Origin: Terrimonas sp.
GTDB lineage: Bacteria > Bacteroidota > Bacteroidia > Chitinophagales > Chitinophagaceae
Assembly (NCBI RefSeq): GCF_003075435.1
Contig: NZ_QCZJ01000015.1
Location: 1-64,000 of the forward strand
DNA: 64,000 nucleotides
Direction: 5' to 3'
Below, one piece after another: positions 1 to 12,025 of this stretch; position 1 is the stretch's first letter; each line of letters starts with the position of its first letter. Made by a program: the position numbers and the translations under genes. The notes beneath the pieces were generated by a model. That model was given only the letters and a program-made list of their open reading frames with translations, was not told the origin of the DNA and did no database searches.

Positions 1-81
1 GAAAAAAATCTCTCAACTCTTAATACTCATCCGTATTTTTATCACCTCATTTAGCTCTTACTCATAGTATCGCAACCGGAG

Positions 82-113
82 TGGGTCAACATGCAAGAAC
101 AATGGGTCAACAT
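82..113. mobile_element. Paired direct repeats resembling an IS21-family end
   Basis: The 11-mer TGGGTCAACAT occurs at 82-92 and again at 103-113, a period of 21 bp, just left of the CRISPR array. IS21-family elements of Bacteroidetes often carry short TGTTGACCC-type repeats in their ends (family knowledge from memory), and the reverse complement here reads ATGTTGACCCA twice. No transposase reading frame fits in the 81 bases to the left, so only an end or a remnant could be present. It could also be unrelated to any IS. No anti-repeat matching the CRISPR repeat was found in 1-148, so no tracrRNA is visible on this side. Confidence 0.35.
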
Positions 114-148
114 CTCAGGAATTTACATCAGAGTATCTGATCGTGACA

Positions 149-3039
149 GTTGTAAAAGAACTAAGCTACTTAATAATTTGAAAGCAATTCACAACTCGAA
201 TGCGGTAACTAATATACGACCAGATGTTGTAAAAGAACTAAGCTACTTAATAATTTGAAAGCAATTCACAACCCGCACATTAGATCTTACTGAACGGCAG
301 GAGTTGTAAAAGAACTAAGCTACTTAATAATTTGAAAGCAATTCACAACAAAAAGGTGGATGAAAAACAATGCAGACAGGTTGTAAAAGAACTAAGCTAC
401 TTAATAATTTGAAAGCAATTCACAACAACCGTAAATGATGGGATACGTGCTTTTGGGTTGTAAAAGAACTAAGCTACTTAATAATTTGAAAGCAATTCAC
501 AACCGTTGCGGAAGGAGGTGAAACGTCTGTAAGTTGTAAAAGAACTAAGCTACTTAATAATTTGAAAGCAATTCACAACCACTTACCGCTACAGGAACAT
601 AAAAATACCGTTGTAAAAGAACTAAGCTACTTAATAATTTGAAAGCAATTCACAACTGTAACGGGGCTGGAAATAATCCCTATAATGTTGTAAAAGAACT
701 AAGCTACTTAATAATTTGAAAGCAATTCACAACTCCGTAACTTAGATTATGAACCAGGAAGAAGTTGTAAAAGAACTAAGCTACTTAATAATTTGAAAGC
801 AATTCACAACTACGCGCCTGATGCTATTTACCACCCTTCAGTTGTAAAAGAACTAAGCTACTTAATAATTTGAAAGCAATTCACAACCAGGCGGATATGA
901 ACAAGTTTTGACAATTCGTTGTAAAAGAACTAAGCTACTTAATAATTTGAAAGCAATTCACAACACGTTAGGATGTATGATGGCGCAGGAGGTCGTTGTA
1001 AAAGAACTAAGCTACTTAATAATTTGAAAGCAATTCACAACCTGACAAGTACGGATTTAAAGCTTTTAAAAGTTGTAAAAGAACTAAGCTACTTAATAAT
1101 TTGAAAGCAATTCACAACTCCGGCGATGATATATTCTTTAAAGGCGTCGTTGTAAAAGAACTAAGCTACTTAATAATTTGAAAGCAATTCACAACGCATC
1201 GGCGCACGTTTTAAGGTCGAGTATCGTTGTAAAAGAACTAAGCTACTTAATAATTTGAAAGCAATTCACAACTTTCAGTTGGAGTGTAAACTATTCCGGG
1301 GCGTTGTAAAAGAACTAAGCTACTTAATAATTTGAAAGCAATTCACAACAGGAAGCAATCAGAAGATCCTTGACATGGGTTGTAAAAGAACTAAGCTACT
1401 TAATAATTTGAAAGCAATTCACAACTATTGGAGGTGTGACTACGTTAGCGGGAACGTTGTAAAAGAACTAAGCTACTTAATAATTTGAAAGCAATTCACA
1501 ACATACGGAATAGTAACATCTAAAGTACTCAAGTTGTAAAAGAACTAAGCTACTTAATAATTTGAAAGCAATTCACAACTACGGCTAATCAGGTTAAAGC
1601 TATTGAGGGTTGTAAAAGAACTAAGCTACTTAATAATTTGAAAGCAATTCACAACGGTTGGATTGGGCGCCTTTAGTTGGAGCGTGTTGTAAAAGAACTA
1701 AGCTACTTAATAATTTGAAAGCAATTCACAACCACACACTTACTTATACCGCAGGATACACAGTTGTAAAAGAACTAAGCTACTTAATAATTTGAAAGCA
1801 ATTCACAACGTTGTGAAGTTGTTCTGCTGAATTAGCACAGTTGTAAAAGAACTAAGCTACTTAATAATTTGAAAGCAATTCACAACATACCGCCACTGAT
1901 TCAAGCAACACAAAATGTTGTAAAAGAACTAAGCTACTTAATAATTTGAAAGCAATTCACAACTTTCAATGCGTAAACCTTCCGACTTAGGTTGTTGTAA
2001 AAGAACTAAGCTACTTAATAATTTGAAAGCAATTCACAACCAGCACAAACGATAACAACTGTTACCGTGTGTTGTAAAAGAACTAAGCTACTTAATAATT
2101 TGAAAGCAATTCACAACTTAAAAGCCAAAACATAGTTATATGCTGTAGTTGTAAAAGAACTAAGCTACTTAATAATTTGAAAGCAATTCACAACCATAAA
2201 CCTGCAATGCTTTTTCAGTCAGACGTTGTAAAAGAACTAAGCTACTTAATAATTTGAAAGCAATTCACAACATAGCTGCCGGCAGGCTTAGGGATTCACA
2301 AGTTGTAAAAGAACTAAGCTACTTAATAATTTGAAAGCAATTCACAACACCTCACCTTGTACAATTACTGATCCGCTGGTTGTAAAAGAACTAAGCTACT
2401 TAATAATTTGAAAGCAATTCACAACGGCATTTGAGAACACCCGCTAAATGGGGGAGTTGTAAAAGAACTAAGCTACTTAATAATTTGAAAGCAATTCACA
2501 ACGCTGTTGTGAAGTCAATGGTTAACTGCATGTTGTAAAAGAACTAAGCTACTTAATAATTTGAAAGCAATTCACAACTGGTTGGCGTTGGGTTGTAGTA
2601 GCTAAGCAGTTGTAAAAGAACTAAGCTACTTAATAATTTGAAAGCAATTCACAACAGAAAACAAATTGCGAACTACGGGTAAAAGTTGTAAAAGAACTAA
2701 GCTACTTAATAATTTGAAAGCAATTCACAACTCTTCTGTGCCGTGCATGTAATAGCCTATCGTTGTAAAAGAACTAAGCTACTTAATAATTTGAAAGCAA
2801 TTCACAACTAAATGTAGCGGCTTCATACAAATGACAACGTTGTAAAAGAACTAAGCTACTTAATAATTTGAAAGCAATTCACAACAGTGGTAGCTCGGAG
2901 GGCAACATTGACTAAGTTGTAAAAGAACTAAGCTACTTAATAATTTGAAAGCAATTCACAACTGTGGGATTTTGTGCAGTATTGTAGGGATGGTTGTAAA
3001 AGAACTAAGCTACTTAATAATTTGAAAGCAATTCACAAA
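149..3039. CRISPR. CRISPR array, 38 repeats of 47 bp and 37 spacers
   Basis: Repeats start with GTTGTAAAAGAACTAAGC, end with GAAAGCAATTCACAAC and are 47 bp long. The first is 149-195 and the last 2993-3039. Spacers are 30 bp, except five of 29 bp (504-532, 1350-1378, 1580-1608, 2503-2531, 2656-2684). By eye all repeats are identical except the last, whose final base is A instead of C (3039). A 47-bp repeat with 30-bp spacers, reading GTTGTGAATTGC... on the minus strand, is typical of subtype II-C Cas9 systems in Bacteroidetes (family knowledge). No cas gene or tracrRNA is visible in the window. Direction is uncertain. The minus-strand repeat holds TAGCTTAG, one mismatch from TAnnTTTG, which would fit promoters inside repeats. 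The plus strand holds TTG and TAATTTG 21 bp apart. The decayed repeat at the right places the older end there, so spacers were probably added on the left. Confidence 0.98.
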
Positions 3040-3069
3040 ACTACTTGAATTACTGTCGGCTATTTCCCA

Positions 3070-3083
3070 GTTGTAAGAAAAAC
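3070..3083. repeat. Decayed 39th CRISPR repeat start
   Basis: After the last full repeat there are exactly 30 bases (3040-3069). Then comes GTTGTAAGAAAAAC, which matches the repeat start GTTGTAAAAGAAC with one small indel or substitution before similarity ends at the terminator of typA. The spacing equals one spacer, so this is best read as the remnant of a terminal repeat marking the ancestral end of the array. A chance match is possible because only about 13 bases are involved. Confidence 0.55.
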
Positions 3084-3084
3084 A

Positions 3085-3114
3085 TAAAGGCTGATCTTTC
3101 GGAATCAGCCTTTA
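3085..3114 (-). terminator. Rho-independent terminator of typA
   Basis: A perfect 11-bp stem, TAAAGGCTGAT (3085-3095) with ATCAGCCTTTA (3104-3114), closes an 8-base loop. On the minus strand it is followed by a T-rich run (TGTTTTTC). It lies 32 bases past the typA stop codon. It also separates typA transcription from the CRISPR array. Confidence 0.8.
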
Positions 3115-3146
3115 TTCAATTCAATTCAATATACTGCTTGGCATAA

Positions 3147-4958
3147 TTATGCTTCCTGGGCGCTCATTTGTTTGGATTGTTTTTTGCGCTCTTCCTCATT
3201 CAGTATCAGTTTACGCATACGAATAAAATTAGGTGTTACCTCAATACATTCGTCAAACTGAATATATTCCATGCACTCTTCAAGCGTCATCAATGTTTTT
3301 GGTGCAATGCGTGTTGCATCATCGCTACCACTGGCGCGGTGGTTGGTTAATTTTTTCCCTTCCGTAGCATTTACTACCAGGTCGCCTGGTTTAATATGCT
3401 CTGCAATAATTTGACCGGCATATACTTCTTCTCCCGGATCTACAAAAAAGGTTCCGCGATCCTGCAATTTATCTATGGAGTAACCTGTAGTTTTTTCCTG
3501 GTTCTTTGAAAGCAATACCCCATTATTTCTGCCGGGAATCGGGCCTTTCCATGGCTTATACTCATTAAAGCGGTGAGCCATTACAGCTTCGCCGGTTGTT
3601 GCAGTAAGCATTTGTGTACGCAACCCGATCAACCCACGGGAAGGAATATCAAATTCCAGGTGCTGCATACTACCCTTGGTTTCCATCACCAGCATTTCAC
3701 CTTTACGGCGCGATACCAGGTCGATAACCTTACTTGCAAATTCTTCAGGCACATCAACAACCAGTGTTTCGTAGGGTTCGCACTTTTTACCATCTATCGT
3801 TTTTACAATTACCTGCGGCTGGCCTACAGTTAACTCATATCCTTCCCTGCGCATGGTTTCAATCAATATACCCAGGTGTAAAATACCGCGGCCATACACC
3901 ATAAAGCTATCCCCGTTATCAGTATCAAATACCCTCAATGCCAGGTTTTTTTCTGTTTCCTTCATCAACCTGTCGCGCAGGTGACGGCTGGTAACAAATT
4001 TTCCGTCTCTGCCATAAAAAGGAGAATTGTTGATGCTGAACAACATATTCATTGTAGGCTCATCCACGCTTATTACAGGCAATGCCTCCGGAACCTCTGC
4101 ATCAGCAATAGTATCGCCGATATTAAAATCTTCCAATCCCACTACCGCGCAAATATCACCGGCTATAACCTCCGTAACTTTTTTCTTGCCCAGCGATTCA
4201 AAAATATATAATTCTTTTACCCTTGATTTTTTTATAGTACCGTCTGCCTGAACCAAAGCAATTGGTTGGTTTTCTTTGATGCTGCCACGGGTTACTTTAC
4301 CCACGGCTATACGCCCAAGAAAGGAAGAGTAATCCAGTGAAGTGATCTGCATTTGCAGCGGGCCCTCATTTACTTTTGGCTCGGGTACATATTTAAGAAT
4401 ACCATCAAGTAATGGTGTAATATCTTCACTGGGCGTAAGCGAATCATTGAACCAGCCGTTTTTACCAGAACCGTAGAACGTTGGAAAATCGAGCTGCTCT
4501 TCTGTAGCATCCAGGTTAAAAAACAGTTCAAACACGGCGTCATGCACTTCATCCGGGCGGCAGTTAGGCTTATCAACCTTATTAATAATTACAATAGGTT
4601 TCAGGTTCAGTTGCAAAGCTTTCTGCAACACAAAACGGGTTTGCGGCATCGGACCTTCAAAAGCATCTACCAGCAATAGCACTCCATCGGCCATTTTCAA
4701 TACCCTTTCTACCTCTCCGCCAAAATCGGCGTGCCCCGGTGTATCAATCACATTAATTTTCACATCCTTAAATACAACAGATGCGTTTTTACTGAAGATT
4801 GTTATCCCCCTTTCCCGCTCAAGGTCATTGCTGTCCATGATCAGTTCACCGCTTTCCTGATTGGCGCGGAATACATTGGTTTGATGTAAGATCTTGTCAA
4901 CCAATGTGGTTTTACCGTGGTCAACGTGTGCAATAATGGCGATATTTCTAATCTGCAT
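3147..4958 (-). CDS. typA: Ribosome-associated GTPase TypA/BipA
   Basis: A 603-residue translational GTPase of the EF-G-like family that binds the 70S ribosome and acts in ribosome assembly and stress or cold adaptation. The product starts MQIRNIAIIAHVDHGKTT, with the P-loop at residues 10-17. The switch I segment RERGIT, DTPGHADFGGEVER (G3) and NKVDKP (G4) follow, then the EF-G-like domains and the TypA C-terminal domain. Length equals the usual family length of about 600. The frame stays open for 37 more codons upstream. I chose the internal ATG at 4958 because it gives the family N-terminus and because the -7 box at 5039-5046 lies inside the longer version. It is transcribed towards the CRISPR array and ends at a strong terminator. 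Nothing unusual was seen in the catalytic motifs. Confidence 0.97.
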   Translation of the reverse strand: MQIRNIAIIAHVDHGKTTLVDKILHQTNVFRANQESGELIMDSNDLERERGITIFSKNASVVFKDVKINVIDTPGHADFGGEVERVLKMADGVLLLVDAFEGPMPQTRFVLQKALQLNLKPIVIINKVDKPNCRPDEVHDAVFELFFNLDATEEQLDFPTFYGSGKNGWFNDSLTPSEDITPLLDGILKYVPEPKVNEGPLQMQITSLDYSSFLGRIAVGKVTRGSIKENQPIALVQADGTIKKSRVKELYIFESLGKKKVTEVIAGDICAVVGLEDFNIGDTIADAEVPEALPVISVDEPTMNMLFSINNSPFYGRDGKFVTSRHLRDRLMKETEKNLALRVFDTDNGDSFMVYGRGILHLGILIETMRREGYELTVGQPQVIVKTIDGKKCEPYETLVVDVPEEFASKVIDLVSRRKGEMLVMETKGSMQHLEFDIPSRGLIGLRTQMLTATTGEAVMAHRFNEYKPWKGPIPGRNNGVLLSKNQEKTTGYSIDKLQDRGTFFVDPGEEVYAGQIIAEHIKPGDLVVNATEGKKLTNHRASGSDDATRIAPKTLMTLEECMEYIQFDECIEVTPNFIRMRKLILNEEERKKQSKQMSAQEA

Positions 4959-5038
4959 TGTTATTTCTTTAACTTCAATTTTAGTGCGGCAGCAATGCTT
5001 TTGGATGAATATGGGCAATTTGCCCAAATTTAAGCGTG

Positions 5039-5069
5039 CAAAGGTAATACAAATATGCCAGCGAAGCAA
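5039..5069 (-). promoter_or_regulatory. typA promoter (Bacteroidetes type)
   Basis: On the minus strand TACCTTTG (5046-5039) matches TAnnTTTG exactly. A TTG at 5069-5067 lies 20 bases upstream, the usual -33 spacing. This predicts a leader of about 75 nt before the ATG at 4958 and rules out the longer start. Confidence 0.65.
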
Positions 5070-5234
5070 CCGTTTGAGAAACTTAATTATTTTATGATAT
5101 TGATGGAAGTTTCCGCATCATATAGCAGCATTTAAACCCTATGAGCCTTTACCCTGAAAACTTAGCCGCTCATAAGTTAAATGTGTTGTTATTTTTAACA
5201 TTAGTAGCCAAACAATGCTTAATTTTAGCTTGTT

Positions 5235-5789
5235 ATGTGTAACCTGAAACGAACTACTATAGTTATCGCAATATTATTCTCCGCTTTATACCTGGAAGCG
5301 CAAACGTATGTGCCTGCAGGTATCGGTTACCGCAGTCCGTACGCTGTTGCCAACAATGTGCTCAATGCTGAGGTGAATCCCTCCAAAAAATGGTTTGTGA
5401 GCAGGTATAGCATGGTATCGGCAGGATATAGTTTTTTCAGGGGCGGCAGCTTTAATTATATATCTGCTCCTATTGGTTTACAACTTAACAGGAAACTGAA
5501 TAATAATGTATATGCTTTTGCAGGTATATCGGTTAATCCTACATACATAAATTTTAATCAACCCTTGCCACTTACCGGAACCAGCAATGGCCTTTACGGC
5601 AACAGTACGTATGGCTCAAATAGCTTTGGTATATACCCAAGGGCTGAATTGGGACTTATGTATGTGAATGATGAAAAAACATTTTCTATATCAGGCAGCA
5701 TAAGCGTTCAAAGAGGAGGCTACACGGTTTTTCCTCATCAGCAGTTTAATACACAACAACACAATACTGTTATCAGACCTAATAATTAA
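5235..5789 (+). CDS. Secreted outer-membrane-like protein of unknown function
   Basis: 184 residues. The start MCNLKRTTIVIAILFSALYL followed by EAQ is a classical signal peptide with cleavage after AQ. The mature part is rich in Tyr, Ser, Asn and Gly. It has alternating hydrophobic stretches (YSMVSAGYSFF, YAFAGISVNPTYINF, AELGLMYVN, FSISGSISVQ) that look like beta-hairpins of a small barrel or porin-like protein. The C-terminus (QQFNTQQHNTVIRPNN) is polar and does not end in the aromatic residue usual for outer-membrane barrels. I do not recognise a named family. It is transcribed divergently from typA and has no obvious partner. The downstream stretch up to 6247 contains only gene debris. 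Confidence 0.7.
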   Translation: MCNLKRTTIVIAILFSALYLEAQTYVPAGIGYRSPYAVANNVLNAEVNPSKKWFVSRYSMVSAGYSFFRGGSFNYISAPIGLQLNRKLNNNVYAFAGISVNPTYINFNQPLPLTGTSNGLYGNSTYGSNSFGIYPRAELGLMYVNDEKTFSISGSISVQRGGYTVFPHQQFNTQQHNTVIRPNN

Positions 5790-6035
5790 TCCCGGTCACC
5801 ATTTATTTCAACCGGTTTTTCATGGCACTCCATATTTTTTATAAAGCCGGACCCATATCCCTGGTTGGGTATTCCCTGTTCACTCCGGGTTGTATTGTGC
5901 ATCGCACTTTTCATCCGCACCGCCCATGCAGTATTTCAAACAAATACTGTATTTTGAAAATAAACCACAAACGTTATACTATGGATCTCTTTAAAAAAAA
6001 CGACAGGAGTACAATGCTTACTTACCTGTAATACT

Positions 6036-6245
6036 ATTCTCCATGCCCGGCATAAATACAAGCTAGTTTGGAGTGATGAATTCAATAAGGATAGCGTACA
6101 GGATGCTTCCAAATGGAATTATGAGAAAAGTTTTGTGCGTAATGAAGAGCACCAATGGTATCAACCAGAAAATGCTTTTGTAAAAAAGGGTTATTGCAAG
6201 AAGGGAACAAAATATATAATGTATCTTGTTTTCATTAAGAATTAA
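6036..6245 (+). pseudogene. Remnant of a glycoside hydrolase family 16 gene
   Basis: One reading frame gives KYKLVWSDEFN, SKWNYEKSFVRNEEHQWYQ and PENAFVKKG. These are the first conserved blocks of GH16 beta-glucanases and laminarinases (LVWSDEFNxxG, WNYExGxVRNEExQWY, ENA). Similarity stops near 6195 and the frame ends at 6243-6245, before the catalytic ExDxxE segment, so the enzyme core is missing. Upstream, 5790-6035 shows no recognisable coding signal. An ATG at 5981 opens a short frame that stops at once. This is a truncated N-terminal fragment left after deletion, directly before the signal-peptidase-like gene. Confidence 0.7.
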
Positions 6246-6247
6246 TA

Positions 6248-6928
6248 ATGAATTCCGGCAAAAAAATACTCATCGGCTTTTGTATAATTATTTTGCTTTT
6301 ATGGATAGCCGGACGACTAACTAATGCCATCCAGTTCTTTGCTTTATCTGCTTCATCCAATGAACCAACTTTAAAAAGAGGGAGCTATATTTTTTCTTCA
6401 AATCTCGCGAAGCCAAAACTCCTGGATTTTATCTGTTTTCATTATAATACTCAGGAGTTGGGAAATCAAATATGGATATTCCGTTTATGTGGAACAGAAG
6501 GAGACAACATTGAAATTAAAAATGGTGTGTTATTTTTAAATGGAAAAAATGTAGATGCAGGTCTAACTTTGAATCACACTTTTATTATGAGTAATAAAGA
6601 TTTTAATGTTTTACAAGATAAATTCAATCCTGACCCTGAGCAATATTATCAAATAGCTGCAGATAGCTTCTACTTTTTTACAAATGAAAAGTTTTTAAAG
6701 GAACTTAATATAACCGGAAGAAAACTCATTGATAAAAAAGGGACTGAAAATGCTGATGTAGAAAATATCTGGCAAAAAAAATGGAATAAAGACAATTTTG
6801 GTCCTGTTACTGTTCCTCCCGGCAAATATTTTGTACTTGGAGATAATAGAGATAATGCCCAGGATTCACGTTATATTGGATTCATTAACAAAGATGATTT
6901 TGCAGGCACGGTATTAGGGAAGAAATAA
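6248..6928 (+). CDS. Signal peptidase I-like protein with altered active site
   Basis: 226 residues, with an N-terminal membrane anchor at about residues 6-22. The S26 pattern is present in order: SSNEPTLKRG around Ser37 (box B, usually SMxPTL), FRLCGTEGDNIEIKNG at 78-93 (box D), and GDNRDNAQDSRYIG near 198-211 (box E). In active LepB the box D sequence is KRxxGxPGD, with the Lys acting as general base. Here that position is Phe78 and the Pro is Glu84. The nucleophile Ser37 is kept. The protein may therefore be inactive, use another base, or belong to a divergent Bacteroidetes subfamily. The coding sequence is visibly more AT-rich than neighbours and follows a truncated GH16 gene, which suggests a rearranged locus. 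Confidence 0.75.
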   Translation: MNSGKKILIGFCIIILLLWIAGRLTNAIQFFALSASSNEPTLKRGSYIFSSNLAKPKLLDFICFHYNTQELGNQIWIFRLCGTEGDNIEIKNGVLFLNGKNVDAGLTLNHTFIMSNKDFNVLQDKFNPDPEQYYQIAADSFYFFTNEKFLKELNITGRKLIDKKGTENADVENIWQKKWNKDNFGPVTVPPGKYFVLGDNRDNAQDSRYIGFINKDDFAGTVLGKK

Positions 6929-7016
6929 CTGCTTGCTTTTTCTAATATTTTCATCTTCTTTACACTTCTGTCACTTATCTTTAAAGTTCCCTATTTTTAT
7001 TTTCAATCTACAAATT

Positions 7017-8144
7017 ATGATGAAAATTCTTTGCTCAACGATTTGCTTCAGCGTTATCATTTTTATATTCGGCTTTTCAGGTAAAAAACAAATGGCTGAT
7101 ATTGAAAGTACTCCTGCGATCGCTAAAGCAGATTCAGCAACATCTGTTAATGAAGATATTGATAAATATCGTGTTGTATACAAAGGAACATCCGGCGTTG
7201 GGCTGGGGAAAAATATTGTATTCATCGCCAGCGATCATGAATATCGCTCGGAAGAATCGCTGCCTGCCCTGGCAAGAATTCTTGCCAAACGTTATGGGTT
7301 TACCTGTACGGTAATATGGGCATTGGATGATAAGGGGTATATATTGCCGGGCAGTTCTAACCTGCGTGGGCTTGATGTGCTGGATAAAGCAGACCTGATG
7401 GTGATCTTTACCCGCTTTTCCGATTTCACAGATGAAGAAATGCAGCATATTGATAACTACCTGAAACGTGGCGGACCGGTAGTAGGATTCAGAACTGCTA
7501 CACATGCTTTCCATATTAAAAATCATCCCAATTGGGCACACTATGATTTTGCATATAACGGACCTGTGAAAGAATGGAACAAAGGCTTTGGCAAAATTGT
7601 ATTGGGAGAAACCTGGGTTGACCATTATGGAACCAATCACAAACAGGCAACCAAATTAGTGATTGATGATGCGCAGAAAGAACACCCTGTAATGCGTGGT
7701 GTAAAAAATCCCTGGGCTCAGAGCGGCGCCTATCTGGTTCATCCTGAAAAGATGAATGCAACAGTACTTGCCCGTTGTGAAGTATTAAATGGCATGACAC
7801 CTGATTCTCCTGTTGATACTACTAAAAAGCCATTGGCTGCAGCGTGGGTGCGTACCTACCAGCTACCTGGAGGGAAAAGCGGGCGTGCATTTGCCACTGT
7901 ACATGGCGCATCAGAAGATTTGTTGAGCAAGGATTTTCGCCGTATGACAATCAACGCTATTTTTTGGGCAGCAGGGATGGAAGACAAAATAAAAGCGAAT
8001 AGTAATATTGATTTTGTTGGTCCATATAAACCAACCACTTTTAATTTTGACGGCTACAAAGCCAATGTAAAACCATCAGACCTTGCAGGCTGGAACTCGT
8101 TGATTATGCCTGGAGAAATGGTGAAAATAAAGAAAGATAAATAG
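7017..8144 (+). CDS. ThuA-like domain protein, secreted
   Basis: About 375 residues. I start at the ATG of MMKILCSTICFSVIIFIFGF, a hydrophobic signal sequence, rather than 84 bases further upstream. A -7-like box TATCTTTA at 6976-6983 supports this. The core has ThuA (class I glutamine-amidotransferase-like) features. These are IVFIASDHEYRSEESLPALARIL, an ADLMVIFTRFSDFTDEEM segment, GGPVVGFRTATHAF, the GFGKIVLGETWVDHYG stretch and HPVMRGV. The family is named after trehalose utilisation proteins and is common in Bacteroidetes and Planctomycetes next to sugar-degradation genes. The exact reaction is unknown. No sugar-utilisation operon surrounds it here. Confidence 0.85.
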   Translation: MMKILCSTICFSVIIFIFGFSGKKQMADIESTPAIAKADSATSVNEDIDKYRVVYKGTSGVGLGKNIVFIASDHEYRSEESLPALARILAKRYGFTCTVIWALDDKGYILPGSSNLRGLDVLDKADLMVIFTRFSDFTDEEMQHIDNYLKRGGPVVGFRTATHAFHIKNHPNWAHYDFAYNGPVKEWNKGFGKIVLGETWVDHYGTNHKQATKLVIDDAQKEHPVMRGVKNPWAQSGAYLVHPEKMNATVLARCEVLNGMTPDSPVDTTKKPLAAAWVRTYQLPGGKSGRAFATVHGASEDLLSKDFRRMTINAIFWAAGMEDKIKANSNIDFVGPYKPTTFNFDGYKANVKPSDLAGWNSLIMPGEMVKIKKDK

Positions 8145-8208
8145 TGAATGATTGAGTTGTATAACGGTCATATACAGATGTCCGCATCAGGAAAATTATT
8201 TTCATTTA

Positions 8209-8216
8209 TACCTTTG
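8209..8216 (+). promoter_or_regulatory. -7 box TACCTTTG
   Basis: An exact TAnnTTTG match on the plus strand in the gap between the ThuA-like and VOC genes. It lies 145 bases before the VOC start, so the leader would contain the palindromic element at 8260-8322. No clear TTG at -33 was identified. Confidence 0.4.
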
Positions 8217-8259
8217 CCACTCTATATCTTATCCGGGAATACTATTAGCTCTTATAATT

Positions 8260-8322
8260 AACCATTAAGACATTAAGAAAATTAAGTAAAAAGCCTTAAT
8301 GACCCTTAACTTCTTAATGGTT
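8260..8322. repeat. Palindromic intergenic element, copy 1
   Basis: Arms AACCATTAAGA (8260-8270) and TCTTAATGGTT (8312-8322) pair perfectly. Inside them CATTAAG (8271-8277) pairs with CTTAATG (8295-8301). An 18-base stretch, CATTAAGAAGTTAAGGGT on the minus strand, recurs at 33107-33124 on the plus strand. This looks like a dispersed repetitive palindrome family. Confidence 0.65.
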
Positions 8323-8361
8323 TTCAAAACACATATTGGTTTCTGCTAATAAATACCTTTC

Positions 8362-8763
8362 ATGTCTTTATTAAGATCTATCCATCACATCGCAATCATC
8401 TGCTCGGATTATGAGCGTTCCAAACATTTTTATACAAAAATACTTGAACTGAAAATTGTAAGAGAAGTATTTCGGGAAGAAAGACGATCCTATAAACTTG
8501 ATCTTGCCTTGAATGATCAATATATTGTTGAACTTTTTTCTTTTCCAGAACCACCACCGCGTCCATCAAAACCGGAAAGCTGCGGATTGAGACACCTTGC
8601 ATTCCAGGTAGGAAGTGTGGAAGACACAAAAAAGATACTGGAACAAAAGGGCATAACCGTAGAACCTATACGAATTGATGCATTCACCGGCAAAAAGTTC
8701 ACTTTTTTCGCCGATCCTGATGGATTGCCATTGGAAATATATGAAGCGGAAGTTATCGGCTAA
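8362..8763 (+). CDS. VOC-family metalloprotein, YaeR/GloA2-like
   Basis: 133 residues, one complete vicinal-oxygen-chelate module pair. It resembles E. coli YaeR closely: HHIAIICSDYERSKHFY, LDLALNDQYIVELFSFPEPP, RPSKPESCGLRHLAFQV and FFADPDGLPLEIYE. Likely metal ligands are His8 or His9, Glu57, His78 and Glu125. YaeR is glyoxalase I-like, but its substrate is not settled, so I name only the family. It stands alone between the palindrome at 8260 and convergent fabF. The 60-base gap after it is filled by a short-word repeat tract (see 8764-8824). Confidence 0.88.
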   Translation: MSLLRSIHHIAIICSDYERSKHFYTKILELKIVREVFREERRSYKLDLALNDQYIVELFSFPEPPPRPSKPESCGLRHLAFQVGSVEDTKKILEQKGITVEPIRIDAFTGKKFTFFADPDGLPLEIYEAEVIG

Positions 8764-8824
8764 CAGGTATCAGCAGCCAGCCAATACCTGACCGCTGATA
8801 CCTGATGGCTAACGGCTGACCGTT
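8764..8824. repeat. Intergenic short-word tract (CTGATACCTGATGGCTAACGG type)
   Basis: The gap between the convergent VOC and fabF genes consists of imperfect repeats of words such as GCTGATACCTGATGGCTAAC and CAGCCAGCCAATACCTGACC. Similar tracts occur after several other genes (12024-12068, 42990-43103, 48370-48447, 62452-62486). No coding signal. Confidence 0.5.
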
Positions 8825-10069
8825 CTACACCTTTTTAAACACAGATGTTGCCGTATGCCCGCCGAAACCGAATGTATTGTTTACAACATAGTTTACCGGC
8901 TTTTGCACAGATTCATCAATAACAATATTCATACCCTCAGGTATTTTTTCATCAAGCTCGGTTGTGTTAATTGTTGCAGGAATAATATTGTTTTTAATAG
9001 ATAAAACGCTGATGATACTTTCAATGGCACCTGCGCCACCCAGTAAATGCCCTGTCATTGATTTGGTAGCACTAACGGCAACGGGTAGTTGTCCGAAAAC
9101 TTTTTTTATGCCCTGGAGCTCACCGATATCTCCGAGGCCTGTTGAAGTAGCATGCGCATTGATATAATCAATTTTATCAGGAGTAATTTTTGCATCTGCC
9201 AGGGCTTTGCTTATGCCCAATGAAGCGCCAAGTCCATCCGGAGGGGTGCCGGTTAAATGATAGGCATCTGCCGCCATGCCGCCGCCAATCAATTCCGCGT
9301 AAATATTTGCACCTCTTTTTACGGCATGTTCCCATTCTTCCAGTATAAGCGCAGCGCCACCCTCACCAATAACAAAACCATCGCGGGTTTTATCAAAAGG
9401 ACGTGAGGCCGTAAGATAATGTTCATTGTTTTTTGATAATGCCTGTGCTGCTCCGAAACCACCTACTGAAGCAGGCGTAATACCGGCCTCGGAACCACCT
9501 GCAACCATAATGGTTGCCTTACCCAAACGTATAGTATCAAATGCACTGATGATGCCGGTATTGGAAGATGCGCAGGCAGATACAGTACAATAATTCGGGC
9601 CGTGCAGCTTATGCCGTATTGATATCACTCCTGCCGCTATATCCACAATCATTTTTGGAATGAAAAAAGGATTGAATCTCGGCGTGCCATCACCCATATA
9701 ATATTCTTTTACCTGCTCTTCAAAAGTAGCCATACCCCCATTGCCAGACGCCCAGATAACCCCAACCTCGTAACGTTCACTTTCAGGCATATTTACAAAA
9801 TCCAATCCTGAATCTTTTATTGCCTGGTCGCTTGCAGCAATGGCGTATTGCGTAAACAAGTCATATTTCTTAAGCTCTTTTTTATCTATATATGCTTCTG
9901 CATTAAAATCTTTTACCTCGCAGGCAAAACGTGTTTTAAATTTTGAAGCATCAAACTTTGTGATGGGACCGGCGCCGCTTTTTCCTGAAATTATATTTTG
10001 CCAGAAACTATTTACTGAATTTCCCAGCGGGCTTATAACTCCAAGTCCTGTAATAGCTACTCTTTTCAT
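8825..10069 (-). CDS. fabF: 3-oxoacyl-ACP synthase II (KAS II)
   Basis: 414 residues starting MKRVAITGLGVISPLGNSV. It condenses malonyl-ACP with acyl-ACP in fatty-acid elongation in the cytoplasm. The Cys-His-His triad is visible: Cys166 in TVSACASSNTG, His in NAHATSTGLGD, and His in KSMTGHLLGGAGA. GFGGHTATSVF near the end is also canonical. The open frame extends 25 codons upstream, but the internal ATG at 10069 gives the family N-terminus. No acpP gene is adjacent, so this is a stand-alone copy, possibly one of several in the genome. It is transcribed divergently from the gene at 10186. Confidence 0.96.
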   Translation of the reverse strand: MKRVAITGLGVISPLGNSVNSFWQNIISGKSGAGPITKFDASKFKTRFACEVKDFNAEAYIDKKELKKYDLFTQYAIAASDQAIKDSGLDFVNMPESERYEVGVIWASGNGGMATFEEQVKEYYMGDGTPRFNPFFIPKMIVDIAAGVISIRHKLHGPNYCTVSACASSNTGIISAFDTIRLGKATIMVAGGSEAGITPASVGGFGAAQALSKNNEHYLTASRPFDKTRDGFVIGEGGAALILEEWEHAVKRGANIYAELIGGGMAADAYHLTGTPPDGLGASLGISKALADAKITPDKIDYINAHATSTGLGDIGELQGIKKVFGQLPVAVSATKSMTGHLLGGAGAIESIISVLSIKNNIIPATINTTELDEKIPEGMNIVIDESVQKPVNYVVNNTFGFGGHTATSVFKKV

Positions 10070-10185
10070 TGATATGTTTTTATACGGCTGCAATAATATT
10101 CCTAAATAATGTATCCACCAATTTATGCTGGCCGCCGGTATCAAAAAAAATTCTATCTTGACCTCTTCATTGAAATATAATTGTT

Positions 10186-10731
10186 ATGGAACAAACGGTA
10201 TTAGGTATAGGAACAAGACTGCAGCACACGCAATTTGGCCCCGGCGTAATAGTGGGAGTTAAATATGCAACCTATATAATTTCGTTTATACACCACGGTA
10301 TAAAAGAGATTGATAAAACAGACCAGCAGCTTGATGAAATAATTGCCGAAAATGTAAGCGCCGAGATAGAAACGGTTTCGGATACGGAAAAATCTTTGCT
10401 GAAAATTTTGCGTTTATGGGGAGGCATTACGGAAAATGTTCCTTTAGGCGACAGGTGGATAGGCGGCGCAATGGTATTGCAGCCTTCTGATCCCTCATTA
10501 AAACCCAAAGAAGTGCCGATTGATGTTTTCTTTCACAAAATAGTAATGCTGCGCGACAGGATAAGGGTGCTTGAACAACAAATTAATGCCCACAAAAAAT
10601 TGACTGATGAAGACAAGGTGAACCTGCAGCAGTATATTACAAGGATATATGGTTCGCTTACTACATTTAATGTGTTGTTCAAAAATAAGGAGCAATGGTT
10701 TATTGGTGAGAAAGGAAGTAAAGAAGATTAA
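10186..10731 (+). CDS. Conserved protein with UvrD-tail-like N-terminus
   Basis: 181 residues, no signal peptide. The first 45 residues (GTRLQHTQFGPGVIVGVKY, then ISFIHHGIKEID) resemble the Tudor-like module at the C-terminus of UvrD/PcrA helicases (HxxFGxGxV...F...GxKxL), which binds RNA polymerase in that family. The rest is helical and charged, with LEQQINAHKKLTDEDKVNLQQYITRIYGSL probably forming a coiled coil. I know of no defined function. The resemblance is a motif-level inference. A role in contacting transcription or nucleic-acid machinery is possible. It is transcribed divergently from fabF, with 116 bases between the starts. Confidence 0.75.
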   Translation: MEQTVLGIGTRLQHTQFGPGVIVGVKYATYIISFIHHGIKEIDKTDQQLDEIIAENVSAEIETVSDTEKSLLKILRLWGGITENVPLGDRWIGGAMVLQPSDPSLKPKEVPIDVFFHKIVMLRDRIRVLEQQINAHKKLTDEDKVNLQQYITRIYGSLTTFNVLFKNKEQWFIGEKGSKED

Positions 10732-10840
10732 TAATATAATCGTGAGAGGTAAAACGAGAAAGGTGAAATGAGCTTTCACATTTCACGACTGTCCTCTCTC
10801 TTCTCACATAACCCCTATTGATTAAAATAATGCTGTAATT

Positions 10841-12025
10841 ATGAGACTGTATATCTGTATCGCTGTTTGTTGTATTACACTATTTGCAAAGGCACAAAAC
10901 TATAAAACTGTGCATAAGCAGGCCATAGTGGTAGATACACATAACGATATCCTTTCTACTTCAGTTGAAAAAAAGCTGAAGATTGATGGAAACCTGCTTG
11001 GAAGAACGCATTCGGATATAGAGAGGTTTAAAAAAGGAGGGATTGATGTTCAGGTATTTTCCATTTTCTGTGATGAAACTTTTGGCAAAGGCACGGCTTT
11101 TAGGTTTGCCAACCGGGAAATAGATTCATTATATACTATTGCAGCAAGAAATCCCGGCAGAGTGATGATGGTTTCTACACCTGCAGAATTGGAGCAGGCT
11201 GTTGAACAAGAAAAACTGGCTTGCATGATTGGCGTGGAAGGCGGGCATATGATAGAAGACCGGCTGGATTATCTTGACAGCTTATTTAAAAGGGGAGCAA
11301 GATATCTTACACTCACCTGGAATAATTCTACTGACTGGGCAACTTCTGCAAAAGATGAAAGCGCAGCACAGAAAGCAGGCAAACCATTGCCGCATGCAGG
11401 ACTGAATGATTTTGGCAAAACTGTTGTGAAAAAAATGAATGATTTAGGAATGATGGTTGATCTCTCCCATGTAGGCGTTCAAACATTTTGGGATGCTATA
11501 CAAACCACCTCAAAGCCGGTTATTCTTTCTCACAGTAGTGTATACAAATTATGCCCCGTACCAAGAAATGTAACAGATGAACAAATAAAAGCTGTTGCTA
11601 AAAACGGCGGTGTAATACAGGTGAATTTTTATTCAGGATTTTTAGACAGTAATTATCTTAACAGGCGAAAAGCGCTTTTTGCGAGTCACCGTGCTGAAAT
11701 GGATTCTTTAAAGAACCTGAATAAAGGAGAGTATGAAATAGGCGACTGGCTTGCGCAGAAGTACAGAAAAGATATGGAAAAGATCCGTCCTCCGTTTTCT
11801 TCCATTATTGATCATATAGATTATATAGTAAAGCTGGTTGGGGTTGATTATGTAGGCATTGGTGCAGATATGGATGGCGTTGAATCATTACCCAAAGACA
11901 TAAATGGCATTCAGGATTTTCCGAAGATCACGAAGGCATTGCTTGCAAAAGGATATTCGGTAGATGACGTTAATAAGATTATGGGAGGAAATTTCATCCG
12001 GGTGTTTAAGGCGAACAGTAAATAG
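10841..12025 (+). CDS. Membrane dipeptidase, peptidase family M19
   Basis: 394 residues with a signal peptide (MRLYICIAVCCITLFAKAQ). Renal-dipeptidase-type zinc hydrolase that cleaves dipeptides. Metal-site motifs in order are DTHND (32-36), EGGHMIE (about 133-139), MVDLSHVG and ILSHSSV. RNVTDEQIKAVAKNGGVIQVNF follows, then VGIGADMDGV near the end. All expected ligands seem present, so it should be active in the periplasm. It is longer than minimal M19 enzymes because of an insertion (FLDSNYLNRRKALFASH) seen in many Bacteroidetes versions. It is a single gene, preceded by a 110-base gap of short-word repeats and followed by another such tract. Confidence 0.93.
   Translation: MRLYICIAVCCITLFAKAQNYKTVHKQAIVVDTHNDILSTSVEKKLKIDGNLLGRTHSDIERFKKGGIDVQVFSIFCDETFGKGTAFRFANREIDSLYTIAARNPGRVMMVSTPAELEQAVEQEKLACMIGVEGGHMIEDRLDYLDSLFKRGARYLTLTWNNSTDWATSAKDESAAQKAGKPLPHAGLNDFGKTVVKKMNDLGMMVDLSHVGVQTFWDAIQTTSKPVILSHSSVYKLCPVPRNVTDEQIKAVAKNGGVIQVNFYSGFLDSNYLNRRKALFASHRAEMDSLKNLNKGEYEIGDWLAQKYRKDMEKIRPPFSSIIDHIDYIVKLVGVDYVGIGADMDGVESLPKDINGIQDFPKITKALLAKGYSVDDVNKIMGGNFIRVFKANSK

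Follow-up and report, generated by a model that had tools for sequence, protein, structure and literature searches.

The CRISPR array at the left edge of the window, the 64,000-nucleotide stretch of a Terrimonas genome (G000) that was analysed, is very probably the distal part of one II-C locus. This locus would consist of a tracrRNA gene on the minus strand, cas9, two small ORFs, cas1, cas2 and 64 repeats that run up to typA. It is split by an IS21-type element, and its cas9 and tracrRNA appear to have been replaced in place. A suspected orphan array is in this way settled as an assembly break at a transposon. The features discussed below are the following, in window coordinates except for the last, which is given in those of locus L002.

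1–127, plus strand: right end of an IS21-type insertion sequence, at the contig edge; the same 127 bp starts contig C48 and ends contig C31
128–148: rest of the interrupted spacer; 128–134 (TCAGAGT) is the target-site duplication
149–3039, minus strand (the crRNA strand): CRISPR array, distal and presumably older part of the II-C array, 38 repeats and 37 spacers
2993–3039, minus strand: presumed oldest ("extra") repeat, its first base mutated on the crRNA strand
3084–3115, minus strand: intrinsic terminator-like hairpin between typA and the array, with a 13-pair stem (4 G-C) and a T tail
3147–5069, minus strand: presumed typA, the chromosomal neighbour, an ORF of 640 aa
L002 about 2720–2650, minus strand: predicted tracrRNA gene, with anti-repeat, hairpin and terminator

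The array and its insertion sequence

The repeat unit of the window array is 47 bp long. The first-pass annotation had described 38 such repeats with 37 spacers of 29–30 nt at 149–3039, and this is exact to the base. Its remark on the uniformity of the repeats was borne out by script: 37 of the 38 copies are identical, and the final one deviates at its last base only, which is A for C. The spacers are all different, 32 of them being 30 nt and five being 29 nt long, and the repeat pattern read backwards has no match anywhere in the genome. The right neighbour is, as had been proposed, an ORF on the minus strand that we take to be typA, a name that comes from a reading of the ORF and not from a family search. 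This gene has one match per genome in all 12 genus genomes, with 89–97% identity to that of G000 in the other 11. Likewise, cas genes had been described as absent from view, and none was seen among the ORFs listed for window positions 1–9000. The left flank does have only 148 bases, which is because the window starts at base 1 of contig C15 (one of the 82 contigs of G000), but it is not featureless, being made up of the IS end and the spacer rest.

With up to three mismatches allowed, the repeat occurs 64 times in the genome, 38 times on C15 and 26 times on C33, and on these contigs only. The C33 copies (C33:57626–59593) all lie on the same strand and are identical to the window repeat. Contig C33 stops 143 bases past its last repeat, and C15 starts 148 bases ahead of its first. 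The last 127 bp of C33 form the left IS end, which recurs, over 117 bp, at the ends of C16 and C35. The C33 and C15 flanks are paired by the 7-base duplication TCAGAGT, as determined by script, while the other flanks, read by eye, are paired by CCTGG (C16 and C31) and GCATGT (C35 and C48). IS21 family elements duplicate 4–8 bp of their target, and the duplications at the three insertions in G000 are 7, 5 and 6 bp (the last two by eye). When the 16-nt fragment that follows the last C33 repeat is joined to the window piece and one TCAGAGT is removed, a spacer of exactly 30 nt results. The duplication and the joined spacer therefore describe a single II-C array with 64 repeats, broken within one of its spacers; the whole locus has 63 spacers: 25 on C33, the interrupted one and 37 in the window. 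Read from the sequence, the IS21-type element sits inside spacer number 26, counted from the cas side, and broke the assembly there; the join of C33 to C15 rests on the IS ends, the duplication and the spacer length, not on a read.

The assembly leaves C15 and C33 unjoined, as would be the case if the window held a separate, second array, with C33 having its own and one system serving two loci. This is highly improbable, as each contig breaks off after 127 bp of the same IS, C33 in its left end and C15 in its right end, the spacer pieces that flank it share the duplication and add up to exactly the 30 nt given above, and the remaining two left IS ends pair with the remaining two right ends (by eye).

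The left IS end has matches in 19 of the 394 family genomes, G000 included. Two copies in relatives were opened in full (L107 and L109), and their ends, which are 74% and 82% similar, flank an IstA-like (rve/Mu-type) transposase and IstB. The IS interior is not in the G000 assembly, as far as searches with both IS ends show, and an IstB gene on C23 of G000 is not at any of the places with these ends. The II-C array of G214, from another genus (L089, cas9 sense, after 9637), ends in a related IS21-type end inside a repeat, as read by eye, and such insertions therefore recur.

The cas operon, predicted RNAs and polarity

The annotation had, as one of its options, placed cas9, cas1, cas2 and the tracrRNA beyond the left edge of the window, and a genome search located all three genes, together with an anti-repeat upstream of cas9, on C33. 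The order there is cas9, two small ORFs, cas1, cas2 and then the 26 repeats. The cas9 gene starts with the ATG at L002 2744 and encodes 1444 aa (by script). Its product matches TIGR01865 at 354 bits (cutoff 100), with HNH_4 and RuvC_III also above cutoff; Cas1 is of type II (TIGR03639) and Cas2 matches TIGR01573, both above cutoff. For csn2 and a stand-alone cas4, no match was obtained at E 0.001 in the five ORFs scanned from cas9 to cas2, and cas1 has a sub-cutoff match to a cas4-cas1 fusion model, in its Cas1 part. The locus thus has the gene content of the proposed subtype II-C: cas9, type II cas1, cas2 and a predicted tracrRNA, with no csn2 or stand-alone cas4 match. Between cas9 and cas1, a small ORF and a nucleotidyltransferase (DUF6036) occupy L002 7271–7950. 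This is perhaps an inserted toxin-antitoxin-like pair, which is a guess, and partial relatives of these ORFs occur in loci of G123, G107 and G199.

A second CRISPR system is located on C8 (locus L052, about 1–11715), where Cas3, Cas7 and a type I-B Cas1 (Cas1b) are above cutoff and a Cas4-like ORF is just below it, accompanied by an array of about 35 repeats. That the window array is orphaned, or read in trans by such another system of the cell, is the least probable reading of all, as the C8 system is accompanied by an array built on another repeat, CTTTTAATCGAACCAAGTGGAATTGAAAT, and so does not explain the window array, whose repeat is an exact match to that of the C33 array behind cas9. The orphan array considered in the annotation is instead the distal 38 of the 64 repeats of one IS-split array.

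The predicted tracrRNA of G000 lies upstream of cas9 on the minus strand and consists of AAAGACAATTCACAATAAGGCTATAAGCC followed by a hairpin and a T run. Its anti-repeat is predicted to form a duplex with nucleotides 1–16 of the repeat on the crRNA strand (−19.6 kcal/mol, compared to −6.9 for the reversed repeat), and this orientation agrees with the annotation, which had read the minus strand as the crRNA strand. Of the 30 loci of the Cas9 clade to which G000 belongs, 29 have the motif CACAA.AAGGCT no more than about 700 nt from cas9; the sole miss is G206, whose locus is truncated where its contig ends. To pair with the anti-repeat, the repeat must be taken in the direction opposite to cas9, so that the array would be read from typA towards cas2.

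For II-C arrays, the available part of PMC12080349 describes a promoter in every repeat, the entry of new spacers at the last-transcribed repeat and frequent mutation of the first repeat, which adjoins the oldest spacer; upstream terminators were no commoner than expected. The mutated last repeat of the window and the terminator-like hairpin at 3115–3084 fit this polarity, which would make the window array the old half. One such hairpin was found in 2900–3300, where shuffles predict 0.2. The mutation only slightly weakens pairing of the oldest repeat with the tracrRNA (−18.3 compared to −19.6 kcal/mol for a normal repeat). By analogy with other II-C systems (PMC12080349), we infer that the window holds the oldest 37 spacers, with new ones entering at the cas2 side. 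The recent activity suggested in the annotation is not supported for the window half, which by this polarity is the oldest end and has a mutated terminal repeat.

The Bacteroidetes-type promoter box has the consensus TAnnTTTG. Of 29 loci, 20 have an exact copy no more than 45 nt ahead of the anti-repeat (shuffled mean 2.3, maximum 7), and only this exact count is informative for the tracrRNA promoter, as with one mismatch the 27 of 29 observed are near chance (shuffled mean 19.9, maximum 26). Within the repeats, TTG-N17..24-TAnnTTTG with at most one mismatch occurs in 22 of 24 (shuffled mean 4.0, maximum 8), these repeats being related and not independent; the box in the repeat of G000 itself departs from the consensus at one position (TAGCTTAG), with a spacing of 23 nt. 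Probably, every repeat has a promoter of its own. If this is so, only one spacer was lost to the IS, and both array halves would still make crRNAs despite it. In the proposed working of the system, the tracrRNA would pair with nucleotides 1–16 of the repeat, and Cas9 would cleave DNA matching the spacers. Upstream of cas9 in G211 (L086) and G355 (L111), the sequence just before the tracrRNA starts with the repeat-like GTTGTGATTTG, as though a repeat had supplied the promoter of the tracrRNA gene.

The search of phage and plasmid databases proposed at first pass returned no protospacer or PAM, either for the window array (phages at E 10, plasmids at E 1) or for the C33 array (phages at E 10). 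What matched were repeat-like elements of Riemerella phages and two plasmids that probably have arrays, the rest being at E 0.2 or worse. Six of the 63 spacers, searched in viral contigs by their first 23 nt (exact), gave no match. Against its own genome, the window half matched the two array parts and gave 15 matches at E 1.28 or worse, which are too weak for self-targeting. The Riemerella phages (L050 about 1472–1720, L051 about 1472–1590) have between one and three CRISPR-like repeats in intergenic DNA. These end in TGAAAGCAATTCACAAC, which contains the host II-C anti-repeat, and are possibly a phage mini-array or an RNA-based anti-CRISPR. A RAP44-type spacer has a 90% match to the tape-measure gene of phage GDF21. 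The plasmids NZ_AP025303.1 (38612–39098, Persicobacter) and OY726067.1 (23130–23613, Phocaeicola) were matched by the array in many pieces and probably hold arrays with similar repeats.

Probable Cas9 exchange within the genus

A search by Cas9 identity alone, which recovered 28 of 394 genomes at E 1e-50, missed distant Cas9s that the array search found: the window array matches arrays of same-genus genomes in which the Cas9 search had found nothing. The II-C locus is present in six of the nine genus members of the 394-genome set (G000, G336, G279, G123, G310 and G239), a count that does not include the genus genomes G394–G396. G028 and G359 have no match to the array. A further genus member, G380, whose MutL is 96% identical, has a single CRISPR repeat behind a leader-like sequence (L143 about 9394–9441) with no cas match in the 14.6 kb examined, and is apparently a collapsed locus. 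The repeats of G336, G279 and G239 are near that of G000, that of G123 differs in the middle, and for G310 three partial copies only were resolved. All six Cas9s are above the TIGR01865 cutoff. The cas9 genes of G310 (L142 1611–7290) and G201 (L134 3118–6730) have overlapping ORFs or an early end and may be broken or misassembled.

One genus pairs a similar repeat, cas1 and cas2 with six unlike Cas9s. Pairwise identity among the six is 21–36% for Cas9 (15 pairs) and 84–93% for Cas1 (10 pairs from the five members with a whole Cas1, as cas1 of G239 is split across two contigs). The nearest Cas9 is found outside the genus for five of the six, and for G310 inside and outside tie at 31%. The trees conflict in the same way. 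The five genus members form one clade in the Cas1 tree (99/95, with the bootstrap not settled), and a Cas1 clade uniting G000 and its four Cas9 relatives is rejected (AU p 5e-6). The Cas9 tree comes from a quick search, and its long branches were flagged; here each of the six members is placed apart from the others and six label changes are needed, no fewer than with shuffled labels, while a clade of five genus members is rejected (p 6e-48). Across 32 loci (496 pairs), 48 pairs have a Cas1 identity of at least 80%, and in 44 of these 48 that of Cas9 is at most 40%, which is not a rate, as similarity of the array or of Cas9 was part of the reason for including loci from outside the genus.

Close cas1 with distant cas9, together with conflicting trees, is the mark of in-situ cas9 exchange. 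These comparisons indicate that cas9 was repeatedly replaced in place across the genus. For G000, we infer, with strong support from the trees, that the present cas9 and tracrRNA took the place of an earlier pair at a locus that kept its cas1, cas2 and array.

It is very unlikely that there was no exchange and that, at a locus passed on vertically, Cas9 instead changed very rapidly in each species. Such divergence would be in keeping with the similar repeats, Cas1 and Cas2 of these loci, and with G310, for whose Cas9 the nearest relative from outside the genus is no closer than that from within. It does not sit with the Cas9 of G000, which is 79% identical to that of G107 from another genus (Cas1 only 72%) and at most 36% identical to any within its own. 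The cross-genus pairs G336/G039 (68%) and G123/G369 (73%) behave like G000/G107, and the tracrRNA type mostly switches with the Cas9 clade, as detailed below.

With repeated exchange of cas9 as the preferred reading, the loci of sister species with unlike Cas9s raise the question of who reads old immune records, and a testable form of it: do old spacers still work once Cas9, and probably the PAM, change?

Probable exchange remnants and comparison with known systems

In the other Cas9 clade the tracrRNA is of a second type, which contains AAGGATTATTCCGTTGTGAAAAC. This type is found in the 1500 nt before the cas9 ORF (or less at contig edges) in six of ten loci of that clade; in G201, where cas9 is in pieces, it lies just beyond the 1500-nt limit, and in G369, G342 and G310 it was not found within it. 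The first type, that of the CACAA.AAGGCT clade, is found in none of these ten loci. The tracrRNA type therefore appears to go largely with the Cas9 clade. Both types are together in three first-clade loci (G107, G239 and G284), as expected if a new cas9 came with its own tracrRNA beside the old one.

Upstream of cas9 in G000, an element on the minus strand (L002 2443–2425) matches the repeat start at 15 of 16 positions, with a maximum of 13 in 30 shuffles, and has a terminator behind it. The 12 nt that immediately precede its repeat-like part have an exact match on the opposite strand in the cas9 upstream region, and a flush match of this length was equalled by 6 of 20,000 random guides. Among 27 other loci with enough upstream DNA, the best solo repeat is that of G355 (14/16, shuffle maximum 12), which sits in the apparent tracrRNA promoter, followed by UBA7668 (13/16); no terminator was seen directly behind either. 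A reading of the G000 element as a crRNA-like autorepressor was considered and then demoted to a remnant, as its terminator and flank align with the resident tracrRNA end and flank of G279 at 122 of 152 positions. The same stretch aligns with the G336 flank at 108 of 126. The element is therefore read as a decayed resident tracrRNA end. It is unlikely, but conceivable, that this leftover 3′ end makes a crRNA-like RNA (a 12-nt guide, GTTGTGAATTGCTTTT and the terminator) that would guide the newly acquired Cas9 to the promoter region of its own gene and so act as a self-made brake on a foreign enzyme.

Directly after the cas9 stop of G000 there is a decayed copy of the cas1 start (score 153, compared to at most 44 in 100 shuffles). 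This copy and the decayed tracrRNA end are likely two scars of the exchange. Use of the cas1 scar as a donor fingerprint was rejected, as it is nearer to cas1 of the same genus than to that of the Cas9 relatives; it thus names no outside donor, and neither does the tracrRNA end. Its decay suggests an old event, and the spacers may well all be younger than the exchange. Remnants of tracrRNAs as exchange scars were not found in a search of the literature on extra tracrRNAs, nor in the available parts of PMC12669027, PMC6452270 and PMC3936727.

The II-C system of Riemerella anatipestifer, as far as given in PMC5006608, likewise has cas9, cas1, cas2, a 47-bp repeat and a 16-nt anti-repeat, TGAAAGCAATTCACAA, upstream of cas9, whereas in G000 two small ORFs separate cas9 from cas1 and the array is split by the IS. 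Compared to the II-C arrays in the part of PMC12080349 used here, the window array is alike in its mutated first-transcribed repeat and in its terminator upstream of the array, and there is otherwise no notable difference. The II-C locus of Neisseria meningitidis has an extra short RNA, scaRNA (PMC13431127, in part). A comparable short RNA-like element beside the locus is conceivable in G000, but here the element, known from sequence alone, is better read as a decayed resident tracrRNA end.

Exchange of effectors at fixed adaptation modules has been reviewed (PMC6452270, available part). According to the accessible text of PMC3936727, the trees of Cas9 and Cas1 are largely congruent, and dual RNAs are exchangeable between closely related Cas9s only; to this, the genus looks like a sharp exception on the repeat side, as judged from the loci compared. 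In-situ shuffling of cas9, with closely related cas1 beside distant cas9, has been shown for II-C loci of Flavobacteriales (PMC12669027, Extended Data Fig. 9, with the rest seen in part). The present genus belongs to another lineage of Bacteroidota, and its tracrRNA type appears to move largely with cas9 and to leave remnants behind, which the available part of that paper does not mention for its loci. The exchange of cas9 described here is a new case of a known process.
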